A stretch of DNA of 64,000 nt from a virus. The stretch lies in the IMG/VR virus record IMGVR_UViG_3300033273_000833, positions 1 to 64,000 of that record; one strand, given 5' to 3'. The translations under genes were made by a program, and so were the position numbers. The notes beneath the pieces were generated by a model, which saw only the letters and a list, made by a program, of their open reading frames with translations, was not told where the DNA came from and searched no databases. This document shows positions 8,794 to 46,766 of this stretch, piece after piece. How positions within the stretch are numbered: the stretch's first letter is position 1; every line of letters begins with the position of its first letter.

Positions 8794-11225
8794 GCTTTTC
8801 ATTATCAGGAGGATTAATTACTCAATCAGGAACCGATGCAAATCTTAGTGGTTTAGCCTCAGTTGCTGGAGTTGTGGCTACAGATGATGATCCTACTGGT
8901 AGAGGTATAATTATTTACGATATGGGGAGTCTTAGATTAAGAATAACTGGAACTTTGTCTCATGATCCAGATAAAGAAATAATGATTTTTCATCATACAA
9001 AATCCAATAGTAGTAACTCTACAATCGAAAGAGTTCTATCTATTGCTGGCGGCGGAACTTATAATTATGGTATAAGAACAAGTTATAGTGGAAAAGTTGG
9101 ATATTCTTCTGGTTGTGGTTTAATTTTTTCAGGCAGGCCTTTTACTAATTGGCATCCATCAGATAGCGCAATTCATATTGATAGTGCAACTGCAAATTTT
9201 GTATGTAGAGGCGGGATTATTCAGTCGAATAAAGGTTTTTATTTATCTGGTAATGTAGATATTGAAGAAACAGTATTTCTCAATATGACTAATAGGTTTT
9301 CGATGGAAGTTAGAACCTTTGGTCGCAACGATATAGTTACTGATAGGGCTCAAAATATTATTTTAGCAGGAGGGGTTTCAATTATGGATGCTAGAAGAAT
9401 GTCCGAGCAATCGATGATATTCAGAAAAGGTGCAGTTTCTAGGGTATTTGGGGATTATTTCGAGACAGAATTAAAAGATTTTGATGTATCTAAAAATACA
9501 TTTGATTATGACATTGGTAATTGCGCGAATGATACTCAAATGATAGCAGATCATCATATCGTGAACTCAAAAACTGGTAGTGACGTTAGAACTATGTGGA
9601 GAAACACTACTGGGAATGGCAGCCAGCAGGGTAATACTTTTATACATAAAGAAGTTTTATTAAATATCAAAGATAGAGCTGGTGTTGCAATTCAGGGAGT
9701 AAAAATGTACCTATCTGATAATCCTTCTTCTTTTGCTAAGTCAGTATCCTATACAACAAGTCATTCTAGTTATGTATATTCTGCGCCGACATTGTCAACG
9801 GCAACCATAACTAATGCAGGAAAAACAATTTCTTACGACTACACGAGTGCAATTGTATATGAAAAGACTAGTGATGCCGCAGGTAATATTGCTAAATTTA
9901 AAGTTTTAACGGCTACTCATTTTTTAGATAAAAATGCAAATGATGTAAGCGCTTCTCAATATTATACTTCATTTGCGTCAGGGAAATGGAGGGAAAGTGA
10001 TAACGCAGAACCTGCATACACAGACTGGGACACAACTAGATTTGGGGGATTTTATAAAGTTGATAGAAGATCTAATTCTAATACTAATACCGATGATTTT
10101 ACTTTTAATTTTTGCTCATATGATCATGCATTGTCATCAACGACGCAGGAGCTAAAAGGAATAGGTGAATTATTGATTAATTCAATTCTTCTTGGCGATC
10201 CAGCAATAACTGAAAATAAAGCGACGGCTGACGCTTATGCTGTAATAGAGAATTCAGAAAAATTTTACAATAGAGCTAAAGCATATCTTTATGATAACTT
10301 TTCTGGAGAAACATCTACTATAGTATCTAGAGATGGAGATACAATAGATGCTGGATCATATGATGTAACGATTGATAATTCAGCTGGGCAGCCTTTTGGC
10401 TTAAGCGGAAATACTATAACAATTAAATCATCTTCTTTTACTGGAAATATTACAACATCTGGGACTGTAACTTTAGTTGGAAGTATTAATTATGTTGGTA
10501 CGATCACTGATGTAAATGGCACTAGATCATTCGGATCTTATCAAATTAAAAATTTAGTAAATGGTAGCAGGGTACAGGTATACAATGCAACAACAGGTGT
10601 AGAAATTTATAATGCAGTAGTTAATGCTACTAGCTTAACAGAAGGGTTTACTAATACGGGAGGGACGGCGATGAACGCTAACGACAATATGCGGGTTAGA
10701 GTTGCCTACCAGAATGGAGCAACAGCAAAAGAACCTCAAGAGTTATTAGCCACTTGTCAGTATCCAACTTGGGAGGTTAGCGCCAACCAGGTAGATGCAA
10801 CTCAATATAATAATTATTCAGTTGATGGTAGTACTATTGCGGAATTTTCTCTAGATATAGGTACAGGCAAAATTGAGGTAGATATAGATGATACTGATAA
10901 TAGTACAACAGTACAAAGAGTTGCTTCTTGGTACTACGCGGAGTTGATGGAACCCGCTGGAATATCTGATTTATTTGGAGCTATTGACTGGATCGAAGAT
11001 AATCAAATTGCAATTGATCAATCTAAGGTTGATTTATTATTAGATAATGTAAAGGCAGTTCCGCTGATTCTAAAAGGCGGTAGATTATATAGGCTTGATG
11101 GAACAACTATTATTGCTTCTAGTAGTAATTCAATACAAATAGATTACGCTCCAGTTTATATAGCTAATGCTCCTTTGATAGAAAAAATTGATAAAAATAC
11201 AAAACTAATACCAGCGCTACTCTAA
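8790..11225 (+). CDS. Large structural protein, probable fibre or baseplate-associated
   Basis: This 811-residue protein overlaps the preceding stop as ATGA. It opens with SFSLSGGLITQSGTD and is rich in Gly, Ser, Thr and Asn, with a probable beta-sheet fold. Residues about 500-620 hold a segment of short beta-like units (GNTITIKSSSFTGNITTSG) compatible with a beta-helix. The C-terminal part holds AVPLILKGGRLYRLDG followed by a short beta segment. No signal peptide or catalytic motif was seen. It is the last of four co-directional fibre genes and ends 3 nt before the convergent small gene at 11228, with no obvious terminator between. I do not recognise a specific family; a virion role is inferred from context. 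Confidence 0.65.
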   Translation: MSFSLSGGLITQSGTDANLSGLASVAGVVATDDDPTGRGIIIYDMGSLRLRITGTLSHDPDKEIMIFHHTKSNSSNSTIERVLSIAGGGTYNYGIRTSYSGKVGYSSGCGLIFSGRPFTNWHPSDSAIHIDSATANFVCRGGIIQSNKGFYLSGNVDIEETVFLNMTNRFSMEVRTFGRNDIVTDRAQNIILAGGVSIMDARRMSEQSMIFRKGAVSRVFGDYFETELKDFDVSKNTFDYDIGNCANDTQMIADHHIVNSKTGSDVRTMWRNTTGNGSQQGNTFIHKEVLLNIKDRAGVAIQGVKMYLSDNPSSFAKSVSYTTSHSSYVYSAPTLSTATITNAGKTISYDYTSAIVYEKTSDAAGNIAKFKVLTATHFLDKNANDVSASQYYTSFASGKWRESDNAEPAYTDWDTTRFGGFYKVDRRSNSNTNTDDFTFNFCSYDHALSSTTQELKGIGELLINSILLGDPAITENKATADAYAVIENSEKFYNRAKAYLYDNFSGETSTIVSRDGDTIDAGSYDVTIDNSAGQPFGLSGNTITIKSSSFTGNITTSGTVTLVGSINYVGTITDVNGTRSFGSYQIKNLVNGSRVQVYNATTGVEIYNAVVNATSLTEGFTNTGGTAMNANDNMRVRVAYQNGATAKEPQELLATCQYPTWEVSANQVDATQYNNYSVDGSTIAEFSLDIGTGKIEVDIDDTDNSTTVQRVASWYYAELMEPAGISDLFGAIDWIEDNQIAIDQSKVDLLLDNVKAVPLILKGGRLYRLDGTTIIASSSNSIQIDYAPVYIANAPLIEKIDKNTKLIPALL

Positions 11226-11227
11226 TA

Positions 11228-11422
11228 TTAAATTGGAGGTTTATCGTCGTTTTTTATTTTTTTTAACAAATCTTGCTTTTCATCCTCATTCATTTTATTG
11301 TATAAAAAAATTGCTAATTCTTTTATTCTAAATAATCTTTTTTCTGGAGTTCCGTTTACAAAATATAATATCATTGAGCCTAATAGCTTGCTGGTTAGGT
11401 ATTTAATTATTTTTTCCCTCAT
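11228..11422 (-). CDS. Small hypothetical protein, 64 aa
   Basis: This is a short, charged, probably helical protein with a hydrophobic patch (LGSMILYFVNG) near residue 20 and a lysine- and aspartate-rich tail. It is convergent with the fibre gene and separate from the glycosyltransferase operon. A GTG-TACATA element ends 8 nt upstream of its ATG (11431-11439), the spacing seen at other genes here, which supports it being real. I cannot assign a function. Confidence 0.55.
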   Translation of the reverse strand: MREKIIKYLTSKLLGSMILYFVNGTPEKRLFRIKELAIFLYNKMNEDEKQDLLKKIKNDDKPPI

Positions 11423-11430
11423 TATAAATG

Positions 11431-11439
11431 TATGTACAC
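11431..11439 (-). promoter_or_regulatory. GTG-TAnnnn upstream element (64-aa gene)
   Basis: On the minus strand it reads GTG TACATA, then 8 nt, then the ATG of the small gene. It is one of the recurrent GTG-TA elements in this window, weakly matching a -10 box. Confidence 0.35.
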
Positions 11440-11480
11440 ATTATATAACGAAGAATCGTGTTAATTAAGATTAAATATAA

Positions 11481-12479: not shown

Positions 12480-12490
12480 ATTAATTTCTT

Positions 12491-12499
12491 TATTTACAC
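12491..12499 (-). promoter_or_regulatory. GTG-TAAATA upstream element
   Basis: It lies in the 24-nt gap between two glycosyltransferase genes. The hexamer ends 11 nt before the ATG of the 332-residue gene. It is a candidate internal promoter of the GTG-TA class. Confidence 0.35.
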
Positions 12500-12503
12500 T
12501 AGA

Positions 12504-28532: not shown

Positions 28533-30986
28533 ATGGAAATAAAGGTTAAGAAAAGAAACGGTAGACTAGAAAATTTTGAAGTAGAAAAAATAAACGCAAG
28601 CGCTCAGAGAGCATGTGAAAACATCACAGACGTATCTCCGAGTGAAATTATACTCGACGCACAATTACAATTATATGACAAAATAACAACAGCAGAAATA
28701 GATAAAGCTCTAATACTCTCAGCAAGAGAAAAGATAGAAAAAGAGCCAAATTACTCATTCGCAGCAGCCCAACTGTTATTGAATACTGTATACAAGGAAG
28801 TATTTAAAGAAGGAGTAGATTCAGACACATTTAAACTACAATATAGAAAGAATTTTATACAAAACACAAAAAGATTAGTAAAACTAAATAGATTAGACAA
28901 AAGGCTATTAGAATTTGACTTGGTAAAACTATCTGAATCTCTAAAAATTAGAAGAGACAAGCAATTTAAATATTTAGGGATACAGATACTTACCGATAGA
29001 TATTTTATTAGGTCTGATAATAAAATCATGGAAGCTCCTCAATCCTTTTGGATGAGAGTCGCTATGGGTTTATCTCTAAACGAAGAAAATAAAAATGAAA
29101 AAGCAATTGAATTTTATGACTTAATAAGTCAAATGTTGTATACTCCATCAACCCCAACTTTATTTAATAGTGGAACAACACATTCACAACTTAGCTCCTG
29201 TTATCTTAATACTTTTGATGATAGTATTGATGGTATCTTTGACGGTGCTTGGCAGGAAGCTAGAAAATCAAAATACGCTGGTGGGCTTGGCCTTGATGTT
29301 ACCCCTTTTCGTTCTACAGGTTCTCATATTCAGGGAACTAATGGTATCTCTAGTGGCCTTGTACCATGGCTTAAGATATACAACGATCTTTTGGTGGCTG
29401 TAAATCAAGGCGGAAAGCGCCCAGGAGCTGGCTGCGCTTACTTAGAACCCTGGCATTTAGATTTTGAAGATTTTCTAAATTTAAGAAGGAATACAGGGGA
29501 CGATAGACTGCGTTGTCATGACATGAACACTGCTTCTTGGGTTCCAGATGAATTCATGCGTAGAGTAAAGAATGAAGACGCTTGGTATTTCTTTGATCCA
29601 AAAGATACTGAAGATGAGAATGGAAAAACCCTTCACGATCTTTTTGGAGAGGAGTTTGATAATCGATACGACGAGCTATGTAAAGCAGCAGACGCAGGTT
29701 CAATTAAAAATTATCGAATAATTCCTGCGAAAGAATTGTGGAAAAAAATGCTCAAAGTATTATTCGAAACATCACACCCATGGAATACCTTTAAAGATCC
29801 ATGTAATATTCGATACACAAATCAACACCAAGGAGCAGTTCGAAGCTCTAATCTTTGTACAGAAATCACACTCCACACAAAATCCTCAAAATATAAAAGC
29901 GGAGAAAAGACGGAGGTTGGCGAAACAGCTGTATGTAACCTAGGTTCAGTTAACTTAAGGAATCATTTAACTGAGAAAACGGCTCATGGTTCATCAAGTT
30001 ATGCGATTGATTACAAAAAATTAGAATCAACAATCCACACAGCAATTAGGATTTTAGATAACGTAATTGATTTAAATTTTTACCCAACCAAAGAAGCTCA
30101 AAACTCAAACTTTAAACATCGACCAATCGGACTAGGAATGATGGGTTTACATGACATCCTACATATGCTAGAGATTCAAATCGATAGTGACGAAGCTGTT
30201 AAATTTAATGATAAACTTTTTGAATTCTACTCCTGTCATGCTATTTATGCTAGTTCAAAACTAGCTAAAGAAAAAGGTTCTTATCAAAGTTATGAAGGGT
30301 CGTTATGGAGTCAAAATATACTACCGATTGATTCTTTTAATAATTTAATGTTATACAGGAAAAATAAAACAAAAGGATCTGAGACTCTAAAGGAGTGGGA
30401 TCAAGTAAGAAAACATATAAATGAATTTGGTATGCGCAATTCCAATGTTATGGCCATCGCTCCAACAGCTACTATTGGCTACATTAACGGGATAGAACAA
30501 AGCATAGAACCTAATTTTTCTGTTCTTTTTGTTTACGAAAATAAAAGTGGAAACTTTTTTATAACTAATGAACATTTTGTGAAAGATATGAAAAATAGAG
30601 ATTTATGGTCTACCGAAATGGCAACACTAGTTAAAGATGTTGACGGAGACTTATCGCTTTTAACAGAAGTAATACCTGACGAATTAAAAAATAAATACAA
30701 AACAGCATTTGACAGAGATATGTTTAAACTAATTAAATGCAACTCCGTTCGCCAAAAATGGATAGACCAGGCAGTCAGCTTCAATCTTTACAACAAAACC
30801 ACATCCTTAAAGTATTTAAATGATATTTATACAGCAAGCTGGGAATCTGGATTAAAAACCACATACTATTTGAGGAATAGAGCTGCAAGTAAAGTTGAGA
30901 AATCCACATCCCCAGAAGAGCAGGCTCCCTCAGCTTGCAGTATTGAAGCAATGAAGAACGGAGAAACATGTGAAAGCTGTCAATAG
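28533..30986 (+). CDS. nrdA: Class I ribonucleoside-diphosphate reductase, large subunit
   Basis: This 817-residue protein has an N-terminal ATP-cone (VKKRNGRLENFEVEKINA) for allosteric control. The catalytic residues are present: C223 in LSSCYL and C468 in AVCNLG (the redox pair), with N440, C442 and E444 in NLCTEI. C442 is the thiyl radical site. The C-terminus ends CESCQ, the CxxC pair that re-reduces the active site. It converts NDPs to dNDPs for phage DNA synthesis with NrdB, whose gene lies 14.7 kb downstream. A Nudix gene follows by 14 nt. A few inserted stretches, for example around residues 360-380, make it longer than E. coli NrdA. Confidence 0.95.
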   Translation: MEIKVKKRNGRLENFEVEKINASAQRACENITDVSPSEIILDAQLQLYDKITTAEIDKALILSAREKIEKEPNYSFAAAQLLLNTVYKEVFKEGVDSDTFKLQYRKNFIQNTKRLVKLNRLDKRLLEFDLVKLSESLKIRRDKQFKYLGIQILTDRYFIRSDNKIMEAPQSFWMRVAMGLSLNEENKNEKAIEFYDLISQMLYTPSTPTLFNSGTTHSQLSSCYLNTFDDSIDGIFDGAWQEARKSKYAGGLGLDVTPFRSTGSHIQGTNGISSGLVPWLKIYNDLLVAVNQGGKRPGAGCAYLEPWHLDFEDFLNLRRNTGDDRLRCHDMNTASWVPDEFMRRVKNEDAWYFFDPKDTEDENGKTLHDLFGEEFDNRYDELCKAADAGSIKNYRIIPAKELWKKMLKVLFETSHPWNTFKDPCNIRYTNQHQGAVRSSNLCTEITLHTKSSKYKSGEKTEVGETAVCNLGSVNLRNHLTEKTAHGSSSYAIDYKKLESTIHTAIRILDNVIDLNFYPTKEAQNSNFKHRPIGLGMMGLHDILHMLEIQIDSDEAVKFNDKLFEFYSCHAIYASSKLAKEKGSYQSYEGSLWSQNILPIDSFNNLMLYRKNKTKGSETLKEWDQVRKHINEFGMRNSNVMAIAPTATIGYINGIEQSIEPNFSVLFVYENKSGNFFITNEHFVKDMKNRDLWSTEMATLVKDVDGDLSLLTEVIPDELKNKYKTAFDRDMFKLIKCNSVRQKWIDQAVSFNLYNKTTSLKYLNDIYTASWESGLKTTYYLRNRAASKVEKSTSPEEQAPSACSIEAMKNGETCESCQ

Positions 30987-33148: not shown

Positions 33149-34300
33149 ATGAGTATTGCGCGATTTAGTGATCTTCCAGAAAAAAATAATCCATCAACAG
33201 GAGATTATGTTGTAGGTTATGAAAAATCTTCATTTATGGATGAAAAGAAGTATTCAATAAAAGAATTATTCTCTTTATACTCCTCACTAGATCAAGAAAT
33301 CTCAGGTAAGCGAATTTTTCATAATATTGAATACGCTGGAGGTCTTACTATCGACGATATTTCAGGCGTAGATAAACAAGTTTCAAAAATCGTCAAACAA
33401 ACCCCTATAGAATTTATTGGCGAAGCGGATGGTTTTACGACTCCTAGAGCTTGGATAAATGAAATACATTACGATAATAGATGCGTAGACATAAAAGAGT
33501 TCGTAGAAGTCTGTGGGCATACAGGTCTAGACCCAAGAAGATTAACCATTATACATTATAAGTCAGATGGGTACATGTACCAAACCCATCAATTTTGCGA
33601 AAAAGATGGATGCGTCGATCCAGAGCCTTTTGCTTACACGCTAACAGGAACATCATTTGAAAACGTTGTCGGGGACTTTGGTTTTGAAGCAGCGCCAATG
33701 TCTGGGATATCTAATGATACTGACTATGGTTTTGCTTTAGTTTATGACTACCAAGAAACTGGAGAAAGAGTCTTGCAATTAATAAGTTATGAAGGTAGTG
33801 GTCAACAAATTTCTTTTGTAGCAAAAGACGGCCCTGCGTCAGGGATGAGATCCCACGACATTATAGCTATCCAAGACCCAGATGTTCAAGAAATTTTATG
33901 CGAAGAATTAAGAACTCTTCAGCTTTTTGGCACAGGTAATAGATATTCTGATTTTGAATGGAGATTCCCAACAGAGCATCAATTAGAAACAAGCGGATAC
34001 TTAAACCACGATCAAGGATTCAAAACTATAGATGGAGATAAAGATCGGCTACCTTTTGAATCAAGGCTTGGAGTTAACACAAAAAACCCCTTAGATACAT
34101 TACATGTTAAAGGGGGGATCACAGCAGAGGGTAATTTATTAATTTATGGCCCCGACTCAGGACATTATGGACAACACAGAAAAACTCTAGTTAGAATTGA
34201 AAACCTACCTTCAGAACAAGACTTTCATAATATACCACCAAACACGCTATATAGAAGTGGACATCATTTAATGGTAAAACCAACAGACTTAAGAGACTAA
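33149..34300 (+). CDS. Fibre-associated protein with lamin-tail-like domain
   Basis: This 383-residue protein has a short N-terminal segment (ARFSDLPEKNNPSTGDYVVG) like those on phage structural proteins. Residues about 95-240 have the pattern AWINEIHYDNRCVDIKEFVE and LDPRRLTIIHYKSDGYMY, which resembles the lamin-tail (LTD) beta-sandwich found in secreted bacterial proteins. Near residue 315 come LGVNTKNPLDTLHVKGG and a short shaft, matching the fibre motif in 19553 and in the first gene. It lies just upstream of the putative holin. A virion-surface binding role is inferred. Confidence 0.6.
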   Translation: MSIARFSDLPEKNNPSTGDYVVGYEKSSFMDEKKYSIKELFSLYSSLDQEISGKRIFHNIEYAGGLTIDDISGVDKQVSKIVKQTPIEFIGEADGFTTPRAWINEIHYDNRCVDIKEFVEVCGHTGLDPRRLTIIHYKSDGYMYQTHQFCEKDGCVDPEPFAYTLTGTSFENVVGDFGFEAAPMSGISNDTDYGFALVYDYQETGERVLQLISYEGSGQQISFVAKDGPASGMRSHDIIAIQDPDVQEILCEELRTLQLFGTGNRYSDFEWRFPTEHQLETSGYLNHDQGFKTIDGDKDRLPFESRLGVNTKNPLDTLHVKGGITAEGNLLIYGPDSGHYGQHRKTLVRIENLPSEQDFHNIPPNTLYRSGHHLMVKPTDLRD

Positions 34301-34301
34301 A

Positions 34302-34736
34302 ATGGGACCAATACTAAATACAATAATAGGAGCGGGAATAAAAATAGGAGTTAACCTTATTAACGCTTGGTTAATGCAAAAGCATCAAGCTCAAATGTTG
34401 ATGGCGGCGAGAGACCAAGCTTTAGTAGAAGCGTTACTTAAAAATCAATCAGAACAAGCTAAAGATCCTTTTGTTAAAGTAACTAGAAGGGTTTTATTCA
34501 TGAGTATAACATTCACTATGTGCTTTCTGATGATTTACTACGCCTTAAACCCTGGAATTTCATATGATGTAATAGTACCTAAAGGTGATGGAGCTAGATG
34601 GAGTATTTTTTCTTGGATTTTTGGTGGAAAAGAATGGGAGATGGTTCAGATGACAGGAGGGCTACTTTTAAGTTCTTTTTTTGATCTTTGTTTTATGGTT
34701 GTGGGTTTTTATGCAGTACCCAGTAAAATGAGATGA
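34302..34736 (+). CDS. Holin-like small membrane protein
   Basis: This 144-residue protein has an amphipathic N-terminal region (GPILNTIIGAGIKIGVNL, residues 2-19), a polar helix, then two hydrophobic stretches at about residues 63-82 and 116-138. The layout resembles the three-TM GTA-type holins found in many aquatic phages. It is followed with a 4-nt overlap by a candidate spanin, supporting a lysis cassette; however no endolysin is seen nearby. Holin function is inferred, and a tail-associated membrane protein is possible. Confidence 0.5.
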   Translation: MGPILNTIIGAGIKIGVNLINAWLMQKHQAQMLMAARDQALVEALLKNQSEQAKDPFVKVTRRVLFMSITFTMCFLMIYYALNPGISYDVIVPKGDGARWSIFSWIFGGKEWEMVQMTGGLLLSSFFDLCFMVVGFYAVPSKMR

Positions 34737-35032
34737 AATACTTAATACTAATAACACTACTTTTATCATCTTGTTTTTCAGCTAATATAAAAAACAGTAA
34801 AAATTACATTAAAGATGAGACTATAACTTTAGAAACAATAGACACAAACCGAGACGGCAATTTATCTATATCAGAAATTAATTCATTTAAGAGACAATCA
34901 ACATCAAACAAATCAGATCCATTCAAGATATTTTTAGTTTTAATTAGTTTAGTTTTATTAATATCATCGTCTCCTTATGTAATAAATTCAATTAAGAATA
35001 AGTATGTCTCTAAGAATAAACAGAAGGAATAA
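34733..35032 (+). CDS. Lipoprotein with EF-hand and C-terminal TM segment, candidate unimolecular spanin
   Basis: This 99-residue protein combines three elements. The first is a lipoprotein signal peptide, lipobox LSSC with C14, giving an outer-membrane lipid anchor. The second is an EF-hand-like loop at residues 37-48 (DTNRDGNLSISE) with Asp, Asn, Asp, Gly and Glu in the canonical places. The third is a hydrophobic segment at residues 64-84 near the C-terminus, placed to sit in the inner membrane. This is the architecture of unimolecular spanins such as T1 gp11, which fuse the two membranes at the last step of lysis. The EF-hand is unusual. It follows the holin-like gene. Confidence 0.55.
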   Translation: MKYLILITLLLSSCFSANIKNSKNYIKDETITLETIDTNRDGNLSISEINSFKRQSTSNKSDPFKIFLVLISLVLLISSSPYVINSIKNKYVSKNKQKE

Positions 35033-38000
35033 TTTTCTAGAGATCAAAGAGGGTTCTAATTTAAAAATATTCAGAGCCCCAACTAGAGACCCCAATCAAA
35101 TCCCTGATCATGATTTTGCATACCACTTAGGCTATCATAATGGAAACAATTATGGCCTATCATCAAACCCACAATTTCATGTTAATTCTGACAGCGAATA
35201 CTATAGCAGCTCTGCGCTAAAATTTAATGGCACTGAATTTTTAGAGAGTAAAGAAATTAATCTATTAAACAAAAACAGTTTTTCTATTTCTACATGGGTC
35301 AACACAGAATCAGAGTTAGAAGAATTCCTAGTAACTGATGTAGATTCGTCAGGCGACGGTTCATTTTATTTAAAATCTAATAACGCCAGCGGTAGGCCAG
35401 AATTTGGAATATATAATGGAGTTAATGAGTTTGCATATGTAACTGGAAATAGTGGCATAAATGATGGTGATTGGCATCTAATTAACATTAATTTTAGCTG
35501 CGATAAACCAAACGAAGAAGTTTCTATAGAATTATACATAGATTCTTTTCTTCAAGAATCAAAATCTCTTAGCGGGATTCTTCATTTAGATTCTTTGTCT
35601 GGTAACGGCTTATGGGAAACAAGAAAACTTGAGGCTTCAAAATTAACAGACGACGATCAAACTTCATACATAGAAATGACTAACAGTCAAGAAGAATCAG
35701 ATCTGTATTTCGCTGAACCAATCACTGGAGGGATAGATAAAATAAGGTATCGAGCCATCAATGACGAAGCTAACTTTGGGGAAATCAAAACCTCATTAAT
35801 ATTAAAAAATAAAGACACGTCAGAAATTTCGACATGGGAACTCCAATCTTTCAAAAGCTCCAACTTTGATAACCAAAAAGCAATCAGCAACCCAACCCCT
35901 TTATATTTTGGACAAACTCCATTTCCACCACCCATACCAGAAAAAGGAATATCTTACGGCCCAGTAGAAAGCGTCTTCACCGCAGGCTGCCCATCAGAAT
36001 GCTTGTCGTATGATAATAGTTTGAAAACTTGGTTTCCAATACAGGATTACAGCATTTCATCGCCTCATGCAAGTAGAGTTATTATAAATATCCCCACAAT
36101 AAAACAATATGTATATGCTGGAAGCCCAAAAATTACAATCCAAGCAGGCGGAGTTTTTACGATTTACAGCAGCCACATAAACTCAAGCACAACTTTAAAC
36201 GTTATCTTTCTACCAATTGGATCCACCCCAAGCCTGACAGTAAACGAAACAACTAATACCATAGATATATCATACCCAAAAAGAAATTCATATTTTAGTT
36301 CAACAGATCCAGCCCTAGTAGATATACTAAACTTTATTAATAATCAAGATAACTTTACAGCAACAACAACAGCTACGACTTACTATAAAAATCAACCCAT
36401 GCGTGGATTAAATGACGGATCATACCAAGCAACAGATGAAACTGAATCCACAAACCCACAAGCCCATTATCCACTAAGAGCTGAAGACGCAAGAGATTAC
36501 GAAACAAACAGCTCTGGCGACGTCATCAACCACGAAGAGCAATATATATACGCAAACTTCAACACCTGGCAAACTGAAGCTCCCTTTCTATATGGACACG
36601 ATTGGGACTCGGCAAACTTTACAAACTACGAAATACTAGGTATTCGCTATCATTACAGCTCAGAACTATCAAATAGCTCAACAAATGGGATGACATTTTC
36701 AAGAATCATTGAATTTGGACTATACTTAAATAACACAGAATATGATTTATGGACATTTCTTCCCCTCAATAACTTTTCAGGATTAACTTCCAATATAAAC
36801 AATCAAAATAATTTCACAATAGGATCGTCTTCTTCAAATAACAAAGAAAAGTTTTATAAAGGAGAAATAGATCAATTAATTATTTTTGATAAAACAATCT
36901 CTCAAGATGAAATAAATTTTTTATATAATAATAATAGAGATAATGTATCGTACTCGAAAGAGCTAGCTGAAGACATGAAGGTAATTTCTTGGTATGACTT
37001 TGCTAATTCCGAAATTGTTGGATGGGACAGGCATTATAGAAAATCAGAAAAAAATGTAGCAAGACTTTATCACCTAAACAACACCAGAAAAGACTCAAGT
37101 TCATATGCAGTATTGCCTGAAGAATTTGGCGATATACAATATTCTAATGATGTTTTTAAGTTTTCTGATTATTCTGCATATTTCGACGGAGAAACTTATT
37201 TATTCGACGAAGGAGGTAAAGAACTTTCTTTTCATGGGAATTTTACAATAGATGTTTTCTTAAATTTTGCTCAAATACCAGGCGCAGACAGACAGGAGTT
37301 ATTAAGAACAAATCATTTCAAAAAAACAGGAACAAGTTTAAGTATTTATTTCCAAAACAATAGGTTATATTTCGACATGTATTTAGGTCTCAAGCAATTC
37401 ATGTTTATAGAAAGTAATGAGCTAGATATTTCTACTGACATTTTTTTTCATGTCGCAATATGTAGAGACAGGGAAAATGTTTATCTATTTTTTGATCGAA
37501 AGATTTGCGGACAAGCATCATTCCCATATTACCTACCAATTGATAACGCTTCAGAAGGTTTATATATTTTTAATGAATTTAATGGGTATGCTCAAGATTT
37601 CAGAATTATTACCGAAGCTTGTTTATATCAACCTGAAAAAGATATTGATGAGTTTACCAATAGGCTTAGTTCCGAATTTTATGAAAGAAACATTTTAACC
37701 ACTACATCACACTATCCAATAACTAAAAAAGTAGAATTTAATGATAGTGACGGCATATACATACCGTCAAAACATTTCATCGAAACCGCTCATGACCACA
37801 AAGCGTTTAATTTTCATAAAAACAGTTTCTCAATAATTGGCTGGTTCAGATTAGAAAACTTAATTAAATCTGGCTTCATATTAGGCTCCTGGAACGACGA
37901 AGGGGGAAACAGTCATAGTTACGCAATTAGGTACGTTAAAAACTTCAGAGACCAAGTAAACACTTTGGTGTTTCTCGCATCTGAAGATGGTACTAACTTT

Positions 38001-41000
38001 AGATCCGTTAGAACAATTAAGTTAAAAAATAATATAATGCGATCCGATAGATGGTATTTTTTCGCAGTAACTTATGATACTAATACTCAAAAATTAAAGT
38101 TTTTCTTATACGATCAACTTAGCTTTATAGATTCAAGCGAAGGTTTAGTAAATCAATTTTTTACTATATCGAGAAGAGACGACTTCCAAATTAATGGAGT
38201 AAAACACACCGAAGAAAGTGATACTTTTTTAGATATGTCTTTATCTCAATTATTCTTTTTAAACAAGCCAGCCTCTTTAGCTGAAATCGAGTCCTTCTGG
38301 AATTCTGGGGGAGGAATAAAATACAAAGAATCAATAGACTTAAATCGCTATGTTATAGCTTGGTTCGATTTCCCAGAAGGCTCCTTATTAGACCTACACA
38401 ACCAGAACCATTTAACTTCTTCTACAGCTTTTACAATTACAGAAGGTAGACGTAAGTTAGAAGCTAAAGATGATGAGGCTGAGATATTTTTAGTAAAGCC
38501 AACTATAGGTAATAATATATTATTTAATCTAGCTGAACATCGGCCCACATACGAAACTAACGGTATAAACAATCTACATTCTTTGCAATTTGATCAAACA
38601 AAAACCCCCTTCTTAGACTCTAATTTTACTTTAAACTTTAATACAGATTTTTCTTTTTATTTTTGCTTCAAATCTTCTGGAACAAATTCAGAGTTTAGGC
38701 CAATTGTAGATTTTTCTAATTCAGCAACACAGGGGCTATCAGTTTTATGGAAAGATACTCCAGAATCAAACTACCCAGGAATTTTAAAATTAATTGTAAA
38801 CAATCAAGAATTAGTATTTGAAAACGAACCTTTTATTAGAGACATAAATGTTGTAAACATAGAATGGAACAGAAAGAAGGAAAGAGTATTTTTATCATTA
38901 AATAACTCTAGACTTTCATCAGCTCCAAAGTCTCTAAAAAATACAGCAATCCATTTAAATTTTTCACAGACACCCATGTCTCTAGGCAAGTTTTATTATG
39001 ATAGCGAAAACGAATTAGGTAATTTCAACGGATTCCTTTCTGAGATATTATACCACTATGGATTAGCTCAAGTAGAAACACTTCAGTATTTTTCAGACAA
39101 ATATAACGCAATTCATCCTGGCACTAGCCCAGAGTATATATATGACGATGATGAACCTGCTATATTTTTTAATGTATCACAAATTAAACAATACATACAA
39201 GAAGGAACTAGCTATCTAGGAAGAATTCAATGCTCTCTATCAAATCCTATTTACTCAACAATTGAAAATAGCAATATTACAATTAACGAAAATGGAGACA
39301 TCTATTTAATAAGTCCAGCAGATAGAGATATAGATTCGTATCAGTATACAGTCATAACTTCAGACCAAGACTCAGATATTGAACAGTCTATGAGCTTTAT
39401 CACTTACGTTCAAAAGGACACGGTCATAGCTACTGTAGATACTAGTAATATCAAAACATTCTTAGCTGACAATGAAACCTCAAAAGGGACGGATTTAGGC
39501 TGTTTATCAGCCAACGAATCAGTCACATGGTCAACTCAAGATTCTTTGATAACAATAAACCCATACAGCGGCTGCATTACATTAAATGAAGATATTCCAC
39601 CTGGTACAGAGTCTATAGACTTTACAGTTTCAACATTAGATACAGAGGAAAACATTACTTCGTCAACAATAACCTTAACAATCTACAATCCAATAAGATC
39701 CTCTGAGTTAATATTTAAAAGTTCATACCCAAGTCCCACAATTGAACTAGATTATATACTTGAACCTGGGCAAGAATATATCGAAGTTGACTTCAATGAC
39801 GGCTTAGGCTACAGGTTAGTACATTACAATAATTTAACTTCGCCTATACCATCAAACTTTAGTACAGCAAACATTTTTCACAAAAACTCTCAAATATACA
39901 GCAACTACTTAAACAGCAATTATTGGAACGATTTTAATAAGTCGATACCCTTAATATCTTTACAGGATATCGCCTATCATGAATACGAAGAAAACTCTTT
40001 CGAGCAAGAATCCAGAGTTAAGTCTTATCAATTTATTAATAATTGGCAAGAATCAGATGTGCCAGAATCAGAAAATCTTTACCAAACTTTTAAATTCTCA
40101 GATATAAATCACTCAGACTTTAGTAATGCTCAAAATATAATCAACAATCTAAGTTATAAAATTGACAGGCAGTACCTAGAAGACGAAGATAACATTAATT
40201 ACAATGACAGGCTAGTATGGAGAAGAATTAGATTCACCCTATCCTCTAATCACTACTTTAAAATCAGAGGCAAATTTATATCCCTAAACGCAAGGCGTTA
40301 CGGATATAACGAAGGCGTCGATACGGGTTCTGAAAATCTAGCTGAACTAACTTTAATAGCCGATGAAGACTCAGTTCTGCAAAAGACATCATTTAATGGT
40401 TTTGACATCTCAAATCTTACATTAAATATAGAAACCGATCAATTAGTTGATTTAACAAAGTTTTTACAAGGATGTCGAATTGCAGACATTTCAATAATTA
40501 ATTTCAATACTTCAAATGTACTATGTATGTCAAATTTTGCTTCGAGAATGTACAGCAAAAATACCGTAGACCCAAGTGACTCAAGTCGGTCATTATTACC
40601 TATAAAAAATTTAATACAAAATGACATAGATTTTTCAAATGTATTAACTATTGATAGATTTTTATACGATTCACATGATTTTACCTACTCAAGCCAATTC
40701 AACGCAACACTTATTAATGGATACCAAGAAACCGATGTAACATCCTGCGAAGAAAACTGGGATCAGTGGCTGTTGGATAATAATAGTAACCACGAACACG
40801 ATATTAATTTATCCCAAGCCGATTTCAGCAATTTACTATCTATGAGTGAATCCTTCAGGGGCTGGTGTTCAAATTTTCAAGTCATATTTGATACTCAAAC
40901 TACAAAGACTTATACAAAAGTAAAAAATATGTACAGATGCTTCAGCGAGTGCCAGATCGGCATACATCCAATTTTATCAAATATAGTTAAATTCGTCTCT

Positions 41001-44000
41001 TTATCCAACTATAACCATAGTAGCATTTATCCTACCCAACAAAAAATTGTATCATCATTATCTTATAGATCAAGTGAATACGCTACAGATTATTCATACA
41101 GCAGCTATAGGTCGGAAAGAGACAATTATTTCTTTTTCGAATATTCAGACGAAAGAGTGATTAAGACGACTTATGGCGATACAGGTACAATTATACATAA
41201 CAACAAAGTTTATTCAAATAGCGCAAATCATTATCTACCAGAACTACAAGTCACACCAGTATTAATACCTTTTTTCACAAAAACAACAGTAGATTTAAGC
41301 TTATTCACAAATGGACTCAAAGATATTAGTTATCTATTTAGAGAGTTTTATAGTTTTTCTGATATTAATTTCACAAACCAATTAAAATCAACAAATTTTT
41401 CAGAAGTTATTGATATTAAAAAACTTTTTACTTCTAGTTTCTTGATTCAAAATATAACATTTCCAAATAATTCTAACCTAGCTCCCTCAAACATCAAAGA
41501 TTCCTCAGCTATGTTTAGCGAATGTTACACTTTAAAAAATGTTAACAATTTCGAATACATGTCTATACCAAACTCTGAAAGTTGTGAAAACATGTTTTAT
41601 TATTGCGTAGACCTCAAATCCATAAAAATACCTCACTTAAATAAAGTAAAGTCTCTACATAGAATGTTTTATCATTGCATCAATCTATCATTAATAGAAG
41701 GCTCTACAGATGCATTTGGATACGGAGGCCCTAACTCTACAGGTTTAATTGATCTAGAGGACGGCTCAGAATGCTTTTATAAAAATGAAAAATTAAAAAC
41801 CTTAAACTTATCTAATATAACTTCAACTAAATTATCAAATATTAATAAAATGTTTTATGGTTGCAGAAGACTTTCATCGATTTATATTGGAGAAACATAC
41901 GTCAATGAAGGATCAGCATCTAATAGTGATAAAAATTTCTACCTAGGTAATGTGACCACTGCGAATTTAGCCTTTTTTCAATGTGAATTCTTAAGATGGT
42001 TCTGTCGAAAAGGAGAAAATATTTTTGACATAGAAAGAATTAATTTGCAAAATTGCTCCAGTGCGGTAGGCATCTTCAGATATTGCTTTAGACCTCTTTT
42101 TCTAGACCTTCAAGATGTTATATTAAACCCTTTACGAAGCACTAATACCTACGACTACCCAAATGATATAGGAAAATTCTTACAACCAATAAGCTTTTGG
42201 GATTTTTCGCAAAGCTTAGAGGATAATCTATTAGAAGCCTGCACATATCCAGATAAGTATTCAGAGCTGGTTGATTATTTTTTTCAAGAACAAGACTTAC
42301 TAGACTCTGGAGATTTTGATCTCGCGAGTAAACCTCCTGTATTTAAAAAAGGTACAGAAGTTTCGAATTTCCCTCAAGCCGAAATAGAAGGGTTAGTAGA
42401 CAAAGGTGATTTCAATATTGAAATCATACTTGCTCACAACAGCTCTTTTGATTTAAGATACATAAAAGCGATAATCTCGCCAAACTACGAGCACTATGAT
42501 TTGTTCCTAAACTCACTAACAGACGGAACTTCAATCAATACAGTTAGAATTTTCTGGACTTACTCCACCCACCCGAACGAAAGTTCTATATTAACCAACC
42601 ATTTCGGCACGAGCGCAATTACTCCTTACGAATTTTTTATAGCTCAAGGAGGAAATTACGAAGGAGAATTATGTATCTTTATAAAAGATAGAAACTCAAC
42701 CGTTCAAGATATAATCGAAGCTAATCGGGGTCCAGGCATCAAATTTGAAACTCTGCTTGATGTAGAAGCAGATCCTATCGGCACCTTAGACCTAGACGGG
42801 TCTCCTCAATACTCCTCAGGGAGCTTAAGTAATAGCTCAAATTCTTCATACATTTCCGCTAATTATGCAATTAAGCCTTGGTTTACCTACCGAAGCAATT
42901 TAATTTTAGATTTAAACGAAAACTCTGGAATTAATTTAGCTAACGCTTTTAGAAACTGCACCCTTATTGAAAATGTATTCATAAAAGGCTCTTCAGCAAA
43001 AATAAATAATTTTTCTGGAGCCTTCGGTCACAACACATCACTCAGGTATTGTGACACATCTAGCATAAATTTCTTAGATAATTACACAAGTGAATCTGCT
43101 TTTTTTAACTGCTTAAACCTTAGGCAGGTCAATCTTGGTTCTAATTTCTTACCTCAAAATAATCAAAATAGAAACCTAAGAAGTATGTTCATGTATTGTG
43201 ATTTTTTAGTTAAAATAGATAATGATTGTGCTGATTGGTATGGACCAAACTTAAAAACAATAGAAAACTTGTTTAACAGATGTAGTTTATTAAAGCAAAT
43301 TAATCTATCCAACTTAAGTCCAGTAAAATGTAAATATATGGATTTTGCTTTTCTTTCTTGCACAAGCCTAGAATCTCTCGATTTAACAAACTTCAACAGC
43401 CATAAACTGCAGTCTTTAAAGAGCGCGTTTAGCCACTTATCTTTAAAATCATATTCAGGTCTACTAAATTACTATTACAACCCATCAGCTCTTAGATTAA
43501 ATTACCTACCTTCTGCAAAAATAATTCCTTATACTATTGCATATGAAGACATACTCTACAACTCAAACACAAATACGTCTGTATTTTTTAGTAATTCCTA
43601 CCTAAATATGCTAAGAGAAGGAGATAGATTCACAGAGCTTTTCTCATGCGCTTCAAAATTTGGTCCACTTAAATTCGAAATCCCCGAATTACACAACATT
43701 TCATCAACGCGCGTAGATCTTGATTTATCCAGCCTGGATTTATCGAACGTAAGAGACGCGACCTCACTAGATTCGCTTGATGGAAGCTTGGGTTATAGTA
43801 GCTCCTATGTAAGATACGGCATAGCCAGGAACCCAGACGATACCTTTGATATAGAAGCTCTACACTCTAGAGGCCTGTGGAGACACGATGACTATAATTA
43901 TATCTCAGAAAATACATTAACAATAAATAGTGAAGGAGAAATTACTTCTATAGAAGAACCATTATATATATCAAACTATAACAGTAATTACGAAGACAAT

Positions 44001-45701
44001 CTTGACCATCAAAATTATCTCACTTACACTTATGGTACATTATATACACTTTCGTTAAATCCTAGAGCTACCGAGATGAATCCATACGACAGAGAAGCGA
44101 CAACAGATGATATTATAAACAGCGCCTCAGACCCAGATCTCGAATACCAATCAACAGAAAAAGGTTTTAACGCGGGCAACGGCGCCAGAATGAATGATTC
44201 TCGTGGTTACAATAATGATCGACACCCAGAAACGACTTTACTATCAAACGGCTCGAATGCTCTTTCTAATCTTTTTTATAATTCAAAAATTAATAATTTA
44301 AAAATAGGAGGAAGTTTTGAGATTCCAAACATTGAACCGACTTTAAAAACATATGATTACGGACATGGTATAAATTTTAATTCAGATGCCGATAATTTTT
44401 TTAATTTTGAAAAAAATTCAAATGATCCAAGTTATGCAGCAAGTAACCCTTACTTTTCTGATGAAAACCACAGTAATAAATGGAGCACAAGCGTTAGGGG
44501 GGTTAGAGCTCCAAGTCCATTATCAATGTTTCGTAGTTCGTATATAAATAACCTAGAAATATCAAATAATTTCCTTCAGTCATGTGAAAAATCTTATGCT
44601 TTAACCGCTATGTTCTATATGGCTAACATCTCAAGTTCGACAGGCTTAGATTTTACAAAACTCAAGACAGATAGCGCAATTTATATGGATCAACTTTTCT
44701 TCGGATATAACGGTACAAACATAAACACCTCCACATTCAAAACCAGCAAAGCTGTAACGATAAAAAATCTTTTTTACAACATCTATAACATATTTAATCA
44801 TAATATAATTACAACAAGCTGGGACACGAGCAATGTCAAGAATTTTGAACACGCTTTCGCTTGGCCCGCAACTACAGGAGGCTCAAACCAAACAGAAGTA
44901 GATAGCATTCTATCCACCTTTGAAATCAACCTATCGGGACTTTCATTCAATTCAGCAGAATTAATTAGAGGAATATTTTGGTACAATAATATTAACTACA
45001 TGATACTACCAACAAATAATTTATTAAGACCTTCTTCTAGAAAAATTTTTACACTAAATAATGTATTCGCAAATTCTGGACGATTTGGTTCATCGACGCC
45101 GTATTCCTTTGCCTTGCCACATTCAAATGAAGATATATTGACAAAAGTTAACGCTTTTTTAAGCTTTCTTGAGCCAGGGCTAACCAATAGAATATCCCTT
45201 AACTCAGCTTTCAATGCTCTAACTCCAGGTAATCAACAAACTACTGAAGATAACCCGACTTACGGATATTACAACACAGACAACAGCTCAAGAAGATCTC
45301 AGCCATATATTTTAGATTTAACGCCTATTGTAGGCAAGTCTATAACGTCATTATATTCTACATTTTTAACATATTTTGGCGGACAGCTAGCAAAGTCTCC
45401 TTTCATAACATCTATCACTAACATTGAGAATTTGTCATTTGACGAAGAAGTAGACGCCTATGACCTATTTAGCGCACTCAGAAGAGTCCATCCAGATTTA
45501 GCAATGAATTTATCTTCTTGGTGTTTGCCTAACGTAGATTATACAGAAAGCGATTTTTTTGATCAAAACAATATACACAATAGCCCTCAGGCCCCAATAT
45601 ACAGCTTTGTAGTATCTGATAGTCAAGGCGGGTATCACGAAAAATCTTCTGCCGCTAATGCAGGAGTTACTTTACCTAATTTTGGTGAACCTTGTGCATA
45701 A
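35004..45701 (+). CDS. Giant adhesin-like protein with LamG domains and BspA-type leucine-rich repeats
   Basis: This single open frame encodes 3565 residues and overlaps the previous gene by 29 nt. In order: four LamG/concanavalin-like modules (residues about 60-210, 700-880, 920-1100 and 1180-1360); two cadherin-like beta modules (about 1380-1470 and 1475-1560); then a stretch to the C-terminus with irregular BspA/DUF285-type repeats marked by units like ENMFYYCVDLKSIKIPHLNK and LHRMFYHCINLSLIEG. No signal peptide or membrane anchor was seen. It is probably a virion-attached receptor-binding or attachment protein; the LamG modules suggest sugar binding. It lies between the lysis-like genes and nrdB. 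Confidence 0.7.
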   Translation: MSLRINRRNNFLEIKEGSNLKIFRAPTRDPNQIPDHDFAYHLGYHNGNNYGLSSNPQFHVNSDSEYYSSSALKFNGTEFLESKEINLLNKNSFSISTWVNTESELEEFLVTDVDSSGDGSFYLKSNNASGRPEFGIYNGVNEFAYVTGNSGINDGDWHLININFSCDKPNEEVSIELYIDSFLQESKSLSGILHLDSLSGNGLWETRKLEASKLTDDDQTSYIEMTNSQEESDLYFAEPITGGIDKIRYRAINDEANFGEIKTSLILKNKDTSEISTWELQSFKSSNFDNQKAISNPTPLYFGQTPFPPPIPEKGISYGPVESVFTAGCPSECLSYDNSLKTWFPIQDYSISSPHASRVIINIPTIKQYVYAGSPKITIQAGGVFTIYSSHINSSTTLNVIFLPIGSTPSLTVNETTNTIDISYPKRNSYFSSTDPALVDILNFINNQDNFTATTTATTYYKNQPMRGLNDGSYQATDETESTNPQAHYPLRAEDARDYETNSSGDVINHEEQYIYANFNTWQTEAPFLYGHDWDSANFTNYEILGIRYHYSSELSNSSTNGMTFSRIIEFGLYLNNTEYDLWTFLPLNNFSGLTSNINNQNNFTIGSSSSNNKEKFYKGEIDQLIIFDKTISQDEINFLYNNNRDNVSYSKELAEDMKVISWYDFANSEIVGWDRHYRKSEKNVARLYHLNNTRKDSSSYAVLPEEFGDIQYSNDVFKFSDYSAYFDGETYLFDEGGKELSFHGNFTIDVFLNFAQIPGADRQELLRTNHFKKTGTSLSIYFQNNRLYFDMYLGLKQFMFIESNELDISTDIFFHVAICRDRENVYLFFDRKICGQASFPYYLPIDNASEGLYIFNEFNGYAQDFRIITEACLYQPEKDIDEFTNRLSSEFYERNILTTTSHYPITKKVEFNDSDGIYIPSKHFIETAHDHKAFNFHKNSFSIIGWFRLENLIKSGFILGSWNDEGGNSHSYAIRYVKNFRDQVNTLVFLASEDGTNFRSVRTIKLKNNIMRSDRWYFFAVTYDTNTQKLKFFLYDQLSFIDSSEGLVNQFFTISRRDDFQINGVKHTEESDTFLDMSLSQLFFLNKPASLAEIESFWNSGGGIKYKESIDLNRYVIAWFDFPEGSLLDLHNQNHLTSSTAFTITEGRRKLEAKDDEAEIFLVKPTIGNNILFNLAEHRPTYETNGINNLHSLQFDQTKTPFLDSNFTLNFNTDFSFYFCFKSSGTNSEFRPIVDFSNSATQGLSVLWKDTPESNYPGILKLIVNNQELVFENEPFIRDINVVNIEWNRKKERVFLSLNNSRLSSAPKSLKNTAIHLNFSQTPMSLGKFYYDSENELGNFNGFLSEILYHYGLAQVETLQYFSDKYNAIHPGTSPEYIYDDDEPAIFFNVSQIKQYIQEGTSYLGRIQCSLSNPIYSTIENSNITINENGDIYLISPADRDIDSYQYTVITSDQDSDIEQSMSFITYVQKDTVIATVDTSNIKTFLADNETSKGTDLGCLSANESVTWSTQDSLITINPYSGCITLNEDIPPGTESIDFTVSTLDTEENITSSTITLTIYNPIRSSELIFKSSYPSPTIELDYILEPGQEYIEVDFNDGLGYRLVHYNNLTSPIPSNFSTANIFHKNSQIYSNYLNSNYWNDFNKSIPLISLQDIAYHEYEENSFEQESRVKSYQFINNWQESDVPESENLYQTFKFSDINHSDFSNAQNIINNLSYKIDRQYLEDEDNINYNDRLVWRRIRFTLSSNHYFKIRGKFISLNARRYGYNEGVDTGSENLAELTLIADEDSVLQKTSFNGFDISNLTLNIETDQLVDLTKFLQGCRIADISIINFNTSNVLCMSNFASRMYSKNTVDPSDSSRSLLPIKNLIQNDIDFSNVLTIDRFLYDSHDFTYSSQFNATLINGYQETDVTSCEENWDQWLLDNNSNHEHDINLSQADFSNLLSMSESFRGWCSNFQVIFDTQTTKTYTKVKNMYRCFSECQIGIHPILSNIVKFVSLSNYNHSSIYPTQQKIVSSLSYRSSEYATDYSYSSYRSERDNYFFFEYSDERVIKTTYGDTGTIIHNNKVYSNSANHYLPELQVTPVLIPFFTKTTVDLSLFTNGLKDISYLFREFYSFSDINFTNQLKSTNFSEVIDIKKLFTSSFLIQNITFPNNSNLAPSNIKDSSAMFSECYTLKNVNNFEYMSIPNSESCENMFYYCVDLKSIKIPHLNKVKSLHRMFYHCINLSLIEGSTDAFGYGGPNSTGLIDLEDGSECFYKNEKLKTLNLSNITSTKLSNINKMFYGCRRLSSIYIGETYVNEGSASNSDKNFYLGNVTTANLAFFQCEFLRWFCRKGENIFDIERINLQNCSSAVGIFRYCFRPLFLDLQDVILNPLRSTNTYDYPNDIGKFLQPISFWDFSQSLEDNLLEACTYPDKYSELVDYFFQEQDLLDSGDFDLASKPPVFKKGTEVSNFPQAEIEGLVDKGDFNIEIILAHNSSFDLRYIKAIISPNYEHYDLFLNSLTDGTSINTVRIFWTYSTHPNESSILTNHFGTSAITPYEFFIAQGGNYEGELCIFIKDRNSTVQDIIEANRGPGIKFETLLDVEADPIGTLDLDGSPQYSSGSLSNSSNSSYISANYAIKPWFTYRSNLILDLNENSGINLANAFRNCTLIENVFIKGSSAKINNFSGAFGHNTSLRYCDTSSINFLDNYTSESAFFNCLNLRQVNLGSNFLPQNNQNRNLRSMFMYCDFLVKIDNDCADWYGPNLKTIENLFNRCSLLKQINLSNLSPVKCKYMDFAFLSCTSLESLDLTNFNSHKLQSLKSAFSHLSLKSYSGLLNYYYNPSALRLNYLPSAKIIPYTIAYEDILYNSNTNTSVFFSNSYLNMLREGDRFTELFSCASKFGPLKFEIPELHNISSTRVDLDLSSLDLSNVRDATSLDSLDGSLGYSSSYVRYGIARNPDDTFDIEALHSRGLWRHDDYNYISENTLTINSEGEITSIEEPLYISNYNSNYEDNLDHQNYLTYTYGTLYTLSLNPRATEMNPYDREATTDDIINSASDPDLEYQSTEKGFNAGNGARMNDSRGYNNDRHPETTLLSNGSNALSNLFYNSKINNLKIGGSFEIPNIEPTLKTYDYGHGINFNSDADNFFNFEKNSNDPSYAASNPYFSDENHSNKWSTSVRGVRAPSPLSMFRSSYINNLEISNNFLQSCEKSYALTAMFYMANISSSTGLDFTKLKTDSAIYMDQLFFGYNGTNINTSTFKTSKAVTIKNLFYNIYNIFNHNIITTSWDTSNVKNFEHAFAWPATTGGSNQTEVDSILSTFEINLSGLSFNSAELIRGIFWYNNINYMILPTNNLLRPSSRKIFTLNNVFANSGRFGSSTPYSFALPHSNEDILTKVNAFLSFLEPGLTNRISLNSAFNALTPGNQQTTEDNPTYGYYNTDNSSRRSQPYILDLTPIVGKSITSLYSTFLTYFGGQLAKSPFITSITNIENLSFDEEVDAYDLFSALRRVHPDLAMNLSSWCLPNVDYTESDFFDQNNIHNSPQAPIYSFVVSDSQGGYHEKSSAANAGVTLPNFGEPCA

Positions 45702-45707
45702 ATTTTA

Positions 45708-45736
45708 TTGACATTGATCTTTTTTTAACTTATAAT
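45708..45736 (+). promoter_or_regulatory. Consensus sigma70 promoter upstream of nrdB
   Basis: TTGACA, 17 nt, TATAAT, an exact match to both consensus boxes. The ATG is 16 nt after the -10, giving an mRNA leader of about 10 nt. Confidence 0.75.
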
Positions 45737-45752
45737 CGTTATATATAAAATT

Positions 45753-46766
45753 ATGAAAGATAAAACTGGAGAACTATTAACAAAAAATATTGCAGGAGTA
45801 AATAGAATTTTACCTCATAAACATAAATACGCATGGGATTTATTTTTAAAAAGTTGCGCAAACAATTGGATGCCTACAGAAATTTCTATGCAAAATGACA
45901 TCCAACAATGGAAAAACAATGAAATCACAGAAGATGAAAAACTCTTGGTTAAGCGCTGCCTTGGATTCTTTGCTGGATCTGAGTCTTTGGTTGGTAATAA
46001 TTTGCTTTTGTCAGCTTTTAGATTTATTACTGACGCTGAGTGTCGTCAGTACATTTTGCGTCAAGCGTTTGAAGAAAGCTTACACAACTTGACCGTAGTA
46101 TATATATGCGACAGTCTAGATCTTGATATAGAAGAGGTCTTTACTGCCTACGAAACAATACCTAGTATAAAAGCAAAAGATGACTTCTTAATGAATATAA
46201 CCAACGACATCAGTAGGCAAGACTTTGATCCTCACACAAAAGAAGGCAAGCAAGAAATTCTAAGGAACTTTCTAACGTACTGGATTGTATGCGAGGGTAC
46301 ATTCTTCTTCAGCGGCTTCGCAATGCTTTTGGCGCTAGGCAGACAAAACAAGCTTCAAGGAATTTCGGATCAAATTAAATATACATTGAGGGACGAAAGT
46401 TCACACATTGCATTTGGAACTTATTTAATTAATACATTAATCGAGCAGAATCCTTCTATATGGACTAAGGCAATTCAAGATGAATTTGTCGAACATATAA
46501 AAAAGGCTGTAGAGCTAGAAATCGCATATGCACATGATGTACTTCCTACTGGAATTTTAGGATTAAATGCAGAAATGTTCGTCGATTATATGCACTACAT
46601 CGGCAATAGAAGGTTAGAAGCAATAGGTCTAGACTATCGTTTTCCTAGTGATAAAAACCCTTTCCCTTGGCTAGGAGAAGTTGTTGACGTACAAGCTATG
46701 GGTAACTTTTTTGAAAGAAGGGTTAGGGAGTACCAGCAAAGCGGATCTTTAGAAGACGATTTCTAA
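45753..46766 (+). CDS. nrdB: Class I ribonucleotide reductase small subunit, tyrosine-less (class Ic-like)
   Basis: This 337-residue protein is an R2 ferritin-like fold with metal-ligand positions E77 (in GSESLV), E108 and H111 (in EESLHNLT), a C-E-G-T-F glutamate near residue 177 and RDESSH near residue 214. The first ligand is Glu where E. coli has Asp84. The position four after H111, where E. coli has the radical Tyr122, is Val115. Both substitutions match the Chlamydia-type class Ic R2 that uses a Mn/Fe cofactor. The C-terminal tail ends LEDDF, which should dock NrdA. It is transcribed from its own consensus promoter, far from nrdA. Confidence 0.92.
   Translation: MKDKTGELLTKNIAGVNRILPHKHKYAWDLFLKSCANNWMPTEISMQNDIQQWKNNEITEDEKLLVKRCLGFFAGSESLVGNNLLLSAFRFITDAECRQYILRQAFEESLHNLTVVYICDSLDLDIEEVFTAYETIPSIKAKDDFLMNITNDISRQDFDPHTKEGKQEILRNFLTYWIVCEGTFFFSGFAMLLALGRQNKLQGISDQIKYTLRDESSHIAFGTYLINTLIEQNPSIWTKAIQDEFVEHIKKAVELEIAYAHDVLPTGILGLNAEMFVDYMHYIGNRRLEAIGLDYRFPSDKNPFPWLGEVVDVQAMGNFFERRVREYQQSGSLEDDF

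Follow-up and report, generated by a model that had tools for sequence, protein, structure and literature searches.

A 3565-residue LamG and BspA-type repeat protein between nrdA and nrdB of a phage, a putative fast-diversifying adhesin

The DNA analyzed here (the window, 64,000 nucleotides) comprises bases 1–64000 of the 203,067-bp virus record IMGVR_UViG_3300033273_000833 (G000), which probably derives from a marine phage. Phage genes in the window or the rest of the record encode a tail sheath, a DnaE-type DNA polymerase, a DnaB helicase, a primase, both ribonucleotide reductase subunits, and a large terminase. Between the genes of the two reductase subunits, nrdA and nrdB, lies an open reading frame (ORF) for a protein of 3565 residues, hereafter the giant. 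It starts with ATG and has no stop inside the frame, which confirms, to the base (35004–45701), the single uninterrupted 10.7-kb ORF described in an earlier note on this DNA; the probability of so long an open frame arising by chance at the local base composition is about 1e-119. The same note called it large even for a jumbo phage. It is indeed large but holds no record, since the giants of relatives reach 4941 and 4948 residues and a Vibrio phage carries a DUF285 ORF of 19,254 bp (PMC7765460). No hydrophobic segment occurs in the first 80 residues (the highest Kyte-Doolittle mean over 19 residues is −0.49), in agreement with the reported absence of a signal peptide; cellular proteins of the DUF285/BspA kind usually have one.

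Four stretches of the N-terminal half match Laminin_G_3 (PF13385) above the curated Pfam cut-off (E 7e-21; 75.3 bits versus a gathering threshold of 27.6), so that the four LamG-like modules proposed earlier are borne out. The best-modeled part of residues 1–1200 is a LamG sandwich at residues 745–870 (pLDDT 70–88), and the low-confidence model of the whole segment matches laminin LG pairs (LG4-5) in Foldseek with an E-value of 4.5e-8. Foldseek also returned clostridial neurotoxin binding domains, but these matches reflect no more than the jelly-roll fold that such domains have in common with laminin LG, and we do not take them as toxin homology. The two proposed cadherin-like modules are a more tentative assignment: a three-sequence profile of residues 1381–1570 matches only cadherins in the PDB, and weakly (Cadherin-17, E 0.011; protocadherin-19, E 0.62), whereas Pfam gave no match to them. 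Sequence searches of the PDB with either half of the protein gave no match at E < 0.05. An annotated phage collection gave no match to the N-terminal half and weak DUF285-type matches to the C-terminal half.

The C-terminal half carries BspA-type repeats of the DUF285 family (PF03382), recognized by Pfam in three stretches (E 6e-12; 45.8 bits versus a gathering threshold of 25). With an iterated repeat matrix, about 12 repeats passed a threshold of one in 10,000 shuffles, with one apparent false positive at residue 68. They lie at residues 2106–2303, 2643–2802, and around 3251, and the remainder of residues 1800–3565 is degenerate or non-repeat. The BspA part thus appears to be a series of islands more than one continuous solenoid; the family had been named correctly, but the long repeat region is patchier than described. 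Structure prediction, the check proposed for this region, gave a model of residues 2600–3565 with moderate confidence only near the repeat islands (pLDDT 55–78). Its top Foldseek matches are leucine-rich proteins, including a leucine-rich cell surface protein (4gt6), and none is significant (E > 0.1). Because model confidence was low, only the LamG and leucine-rich repeat islands were used from the structure models. Direct DNA repeats were considered as a driver of repeat expansion, and none of note was found.

The comparison drew on 80 loci that encode a related DNA polymerase. Among them, contig IMGVR_UViG_3300046168_000070 (G003) shows 97% identity in the polymerase and matches the gene order of the window: nrdA, Nudix, HSP20, proteins of 371, 383, 144, and about 100 residues, the giant, and nrdB. 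A profile search yielded two contigs, L105 and L106, in which the giant is an intact single ORF and again lies between nrdA and nrdB; another scan yielded a partial copy (L113). The giant of G003 has frame breaks, which are probably assembly errors, since L106 is nearly identical at the locus and intact, and overlapping G003 contig ends differ by a frameshift. Between the window and G003, the dN/dS values of the giant are 0.15 (residues 1–357), 0.25 (residues 481–880), and 0.28 (residues 1381–1570), all of them rough because synonymous sites are near saturation, and given only where dS could be estimated. The flanking genes have values of 0.01–0.04 where computable, and 0.12 was obtained for the gene of the 372-residue protein. 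On these substitution ratios, residues 1–357 and 481–1570 of the giant are under purifying selection. A pseudogene, which the earlier note had named as fatal to its reading, is clearly not what lies here: the frame is intact, homologues on two other contigs are intact, and selection is purifying, which rules out an assembly artifact as well.

The same data bear on the idea that the phage took up a cellular adhesin gene only recently and derives no function from it. In favor of this idea, most members of the LamG, cadherin, and BspA families belong to cells. However, purifying selection and intact frames across divergent relatives speak against it, and a non-exhaustive genome scan with few short patterns found no close cellular homologue, only two distant BspA proteins from metagenome-assembled genomes (Clostridia and Treponema). 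A recent cellular acquisition is already disfavored and seems highly improbable.

Conservation falls along the gene. Most flanking genes are 65–98% identical to their counterparts, the N-terminal half of the giant is 53–59% identical, and the C-terminal half aligns in patches only, with 22–32% identity, or is replaced. The N-terminal 23 residues are invariant across homologues. The giant therefore displays the conserved N-terminus and diversified distal part of fiber proteins, and its distal half has been exchanged and diversified among close relatives, as is usual for the receptor-binding ends of phage fibers. L105 and L106 are 82–92% identical in the N-terminal half of the giant, 93–99% in a middle block, and 53–73% in the BspA blocks, a mosaic that suggests recombination and quicker change of the BspA part. 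Past the end of the window protein, the giants of both relatives extend through a module that looks Ig-like by eye, an FGE/C-type-lectin segment, and a VWA-like segment. The FGE-sulfatase domain (PF03781, E 1e-32) has GldK/PorK lipoproteins and Treponema denticola variable protein 1 (TvpA) as its nearest solved structures; the last segment, with a DxSGS motif, is VWA-like by eye, and Pfam gave no confirmation.

Within the conserved N-terminal half, the window protein contains a 123-residue in-frame insertion, here called domain X. A copy was found by profile search inside the tail sheath ORF, and the profile also matches G000:194685-195935, its G003 counterpart, and other positions of the relatives' giants. 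G000:194685-195935 lies in the gene run upstream of the sheath: the last ORF of the record and the first of the window are a single ORF in G003. The relatives' giants have, close to their C-terminus, another module that a segment of a tail-cluster ORF matches. In a profile scan of viral contigs, domain X occurred in this clade only, and a PDB profile search with it returned nothing. The giant thus has modules in common with the phage's own virion proteins, a further trait of fiber proteins: domain X recurs in the tail sheath and a tail-cluster gene. This sharing is the strongest hint that the giant belongs to the virion. It is conceivable, though short of likely, that the locus is a module-exchange site at which the giant adhesin gene would trade entire modules with the phage's own genes for the tail sheath and tail cluster, namely domain X and the Ig-like, propeller-like, FGE/C-type-lectin, and VWA-like modules, and would also replace its BspA tip, so that the clade would re-tool its surface by recombination and not by a diversity-generating retroelement. 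The relatives' FGE domain was weighed as a possible target of such a retroelement; no RVT_1 was found in G000, G003, L105, or L106, the last two being fragments.

Besides the giant, the block between nrdA and nrdB encodes Nudix, HSP20, a signal-like protein, a 383-residue protein, and two small membrane proteins (Table 1). In distant relatives (L023, L025, L026, L029, L036, and others), nrdA and nrdB are adjacent or one to two smaller genes apart, with no giant. This comparison shows the placement of the block as cargo between the two genes and suggests that it was inserted in the subclade, loss elsewhere being less likely. A sigma-70-type match directly 5' of nrdB makes expression of nrdB without read-through of the giant conceivable; nrdB may be expressed separately from this match, a promoter scan being no evidence of function. 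The upstream neighbors are relevant to another explanation, namely a role of the giant on or within the envelope of infected cells (surface remodeling, superinfection exclusion, cell aggregation, or help with lysis), exerted jointly with the 372-residue signal-like protein and both small membrane proteins. The products of the genes just 5' are indeed a protein whose N-terminus looks signal-like, a 144-residue membrane protein, and a 99-residue lipobox/EF-hand membrane protein whose ORF overlaps the start of the giant by 29 nt, and cellular BspA and LamG proteins are typically found at the surface. Yet the giant has neither a signal peptide nor a hydrophobic anchor, and it has domain X and another module in common with tail-cluster proteins. 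We regard an envelope role as unlikely.

Table 1. Features of the giant gene, its locus, and related segments (window coordinates unless a contig is named)
Feature	Position	Strand	Basis or remark
nrdA, ribonucleotide reductase large subunit, borders inserted block on upstream side	28533..30986	+	Pfam
372-aa protein, N-terminal hydrophobic signal-like segment	32007..33125	+	no significant family match; 63-65% conserved
383-aa protein, 'NTKNPLDTLHVKG' motif	33149..34300	+	79-80% conserved; by eye like this phage's structural/fiber N-termini; no Pfam/PHROG match
144-aa membrane protein	34302..34736	+	88-90% conserved; holin-like by appearance only, no family match
99-aa ORF, lipobox-like LLSSC, weak EF-hand match, C-terminal hydrophobic segment	34733..35032	+	also in L105/L106
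Giant ORF, 3565 aa, ~407 kDa, pI 4.8	35004..45701	+	ORF translation; intact homologues L105, L106
N-terminal anchor candidate, MSLRINRRNNFLEIKEGSNLKIF	35004..35072	+	homologue alignment; same in all homologues
LamG / concanavalin-A-like region, four Laminin_G_3 stretches, best aa 82-191	35247..39038	+	Pfam, model; 3' outer limit inferred
Domain X, aa 358-480, in-frame insertion	36075..36443	+	missing at equivalent place in G003, L105, L106
Two cadherin-like repeats, aa 1381-1570 (weak)	39144..39713	+	3-sequence profile vs PDB
BspA/DUF285 repeat block 1, aa 2106-2303	41319..41912	+	repeat matrix, Pfam
BspA/DUF285 repeat block 2, aa 2643-2802	42930..43409	+	Pfam, repeat matrix, model
BspA/DUF285 block 3, best Pfam stretch, aa 3202-3286	44607..44861	+	Pfam
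C-terminal cap with SSWC...PC motif	45510..45701	+	relatives' proteins run on beyond matching point
Perfect sigma-70-type promoter match TTGACA-17-TATAAT, in 51-nt giant-nrdB gap	45708..45736	+	promoter scan
nrdB, ribonucleotide reductase small subunit, downstream flank	45753..46766	+	Pfam
Domain X copy inside tail sheath ORF 2826-7091	5913..6227	+	profile search
Segment aa 584-785 of tail-cluster ORF 8790-11225	10539..11144	+	matches module near C-terminus of relatives' giants
Relatives' giants, 4948 and 4941 aa	L105:6056-20902; L106:10001-24826

The remaining observations concern other genes of the record. The 228-residue protein adjoining nrdB (46768–47454, minus strand) has about 235 extra residues inserted in its G003 counterpart (L100:7703-9094), with matching ends, possibly an intein or other inserted element. 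The minus-strand gene at 53704–54621, amid opposite-strand replication genes, matches the virion structural family phrog_10356 (E 4e-22); its product is 29% identical to the syntenic G003 counterpart, and the neighbors are about 89–98% identical. Beyond the window, G000:104263-108243 (L006) encodes two proteins, the first with DUF1549/DUF1553 (PSCyt2/PSD1) and the second with DUF1501, a pair kept at 83–91% identity in several relatives (L024-L026) with a polymerase identity of just ~63%. Such pairs are known mainly from Planctomycetota and Verrucomicrobiota. The pair hints at the host group; DUF1501 alone also occurs in other phyla.

Collectively, these observations make it likely that the giant is a very long, modular, virion-attached, and fast-diversifying adhesin. 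A scaffold built into or onto the particle would be formed by residues 1–1570, which include the invariant N-terminus and the conserved LamG/cadherin-like half. The C-terminal half with its BspA-type leucine-rich islands would project outward and bind a ligand, either carbohydrate or protein, at the surface of the host or nearby; expression of the giant would be separate and late. Delivery with the virion and surface binding, as the earlier note had supposed, gain indirect support from the missing signal peptide, the module in the tail sheath and tail cluster, BspA proteins in fiber position elsewhere, and particle proteins of Aureococcus anophagefferens virus (AaV); the proposed target, an extracellular matrix or host surface layer, is still a guess. 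Several points weigh against an adhesin of the virion. The gene lies outside the tail gene cluster, in which fiber genes are expected; comparison with tail-fiber, baseplate, and chaperone families gave no match, only weak PHROG matches; AlphaFold models of the giant are mostly below pLDDT 50; the signal-like secreted protein and small membrane proteins next to it fit an envelope or lysis role too; and a module common to tail proteins is not proof of tail assembly. Remoteness from the tail genes, together with the lack of the block at the equivalent place in distant relatives, would also suit a virion-borne protein that does not choose the receptor, such as a head or whisker fiber that keeps virions close to hosts by holding on to polysaccharide, mucus, or particle matrix. 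Glycan binding is common among LamG folds, but the quick C-terminal turnover and the BspA proteins at the fiber position of other phages suit receptor binding equally or better, and we consider a holding fiber of this kind quite unlikely. As a putative virion adhesin, the giant offers a clear evolutionary case for the poorly understood viral DUF285/BspA proteins, in which the locus stays the same, the scaffold is conserved, the tip is swapped, and modules are common to tail proteins, and the role of these proteins becomes testable as host-surface recognition. Phages can thus encode putative surface-binding chains of 3500–5000 residues outside the tail cluster, where annotation pipelines would not look.

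DUF285 occurs in 3 of 14 further partial records of the polymerase clade. In G047, of the same clade, it lies beside fiber-type proteins, and the BspA proteins of L088 and L125 adjoin 'GIGT.TPNERLTVSGNI' fiber-type proteins. Two unrelated phage contigs encode DUF285 proteins at the tail-fiber position: in L115 (IMG/VR contig 3300032038_000037), a 1260-residue protein (9143-12925) combines DUF285 (5e-78) with Tail Collar (3e-26), and in L114 (3300021387_001758), a BspA protein follows a long tail-module ORF. These proteins resemble the giant as phage BspA repeats, but they have 770–1260 residues and regular repeats and adjoin tail genes, with Tail Collar present in L115. Outside phages, purified AaV particles contain the DUF285 proteins AaV_052 and AaV_382 and four LamG proteins (PMC7507832). 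Both module types of the giant are therefore found in AaV particles, although AaV is a eukaryotic giant virus and carries them on separate proteins, not in a single chain. Bacteria and protists have BspA-like/DUF285/PARCEL surface proteins (PMC2996958, PMC2843621), which the giant resembles in carrying DUF285 repeats, each about 25 residues long, that pass the Pfam cut-off. Unlike them, it lacks a signal peptide, and its repeats are few and degenerate. Many of the cellular genes are also marked by tandem repeat DNA, which in PARCEL elements consists of palindromic units of about 75 nt; a scan of the giant gene for tandem repeats found no array, only scattered short repeats.

A close published parallel is Vibrio phage vB_VhaM_pir03 (MT811961), in which ORF200 is the very large DUF285 ORF, of unknown function according to its authors, and ORF287 is annotated as a BspA family leucine-rich repeat surface protein (PMC7765460). 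ORF287 lies directly 3' of nrdB and matches DUF285 with an E-value of 6e-55, so that pir03 shares with the window phage both a very large DUF285 ORF and a BspA ORF beside nrdB. It differs in that it belongs to another phage group and that ORF287 has a far stronger DUF285 score and gave no match to LamG or any further Pfam family. In the papers searched, no description of the giant's domain combination and locus was found. A phage DUF285 giant has thus already been published, and the window gene extends this known, unexplained kind with another domain combination and another locus.

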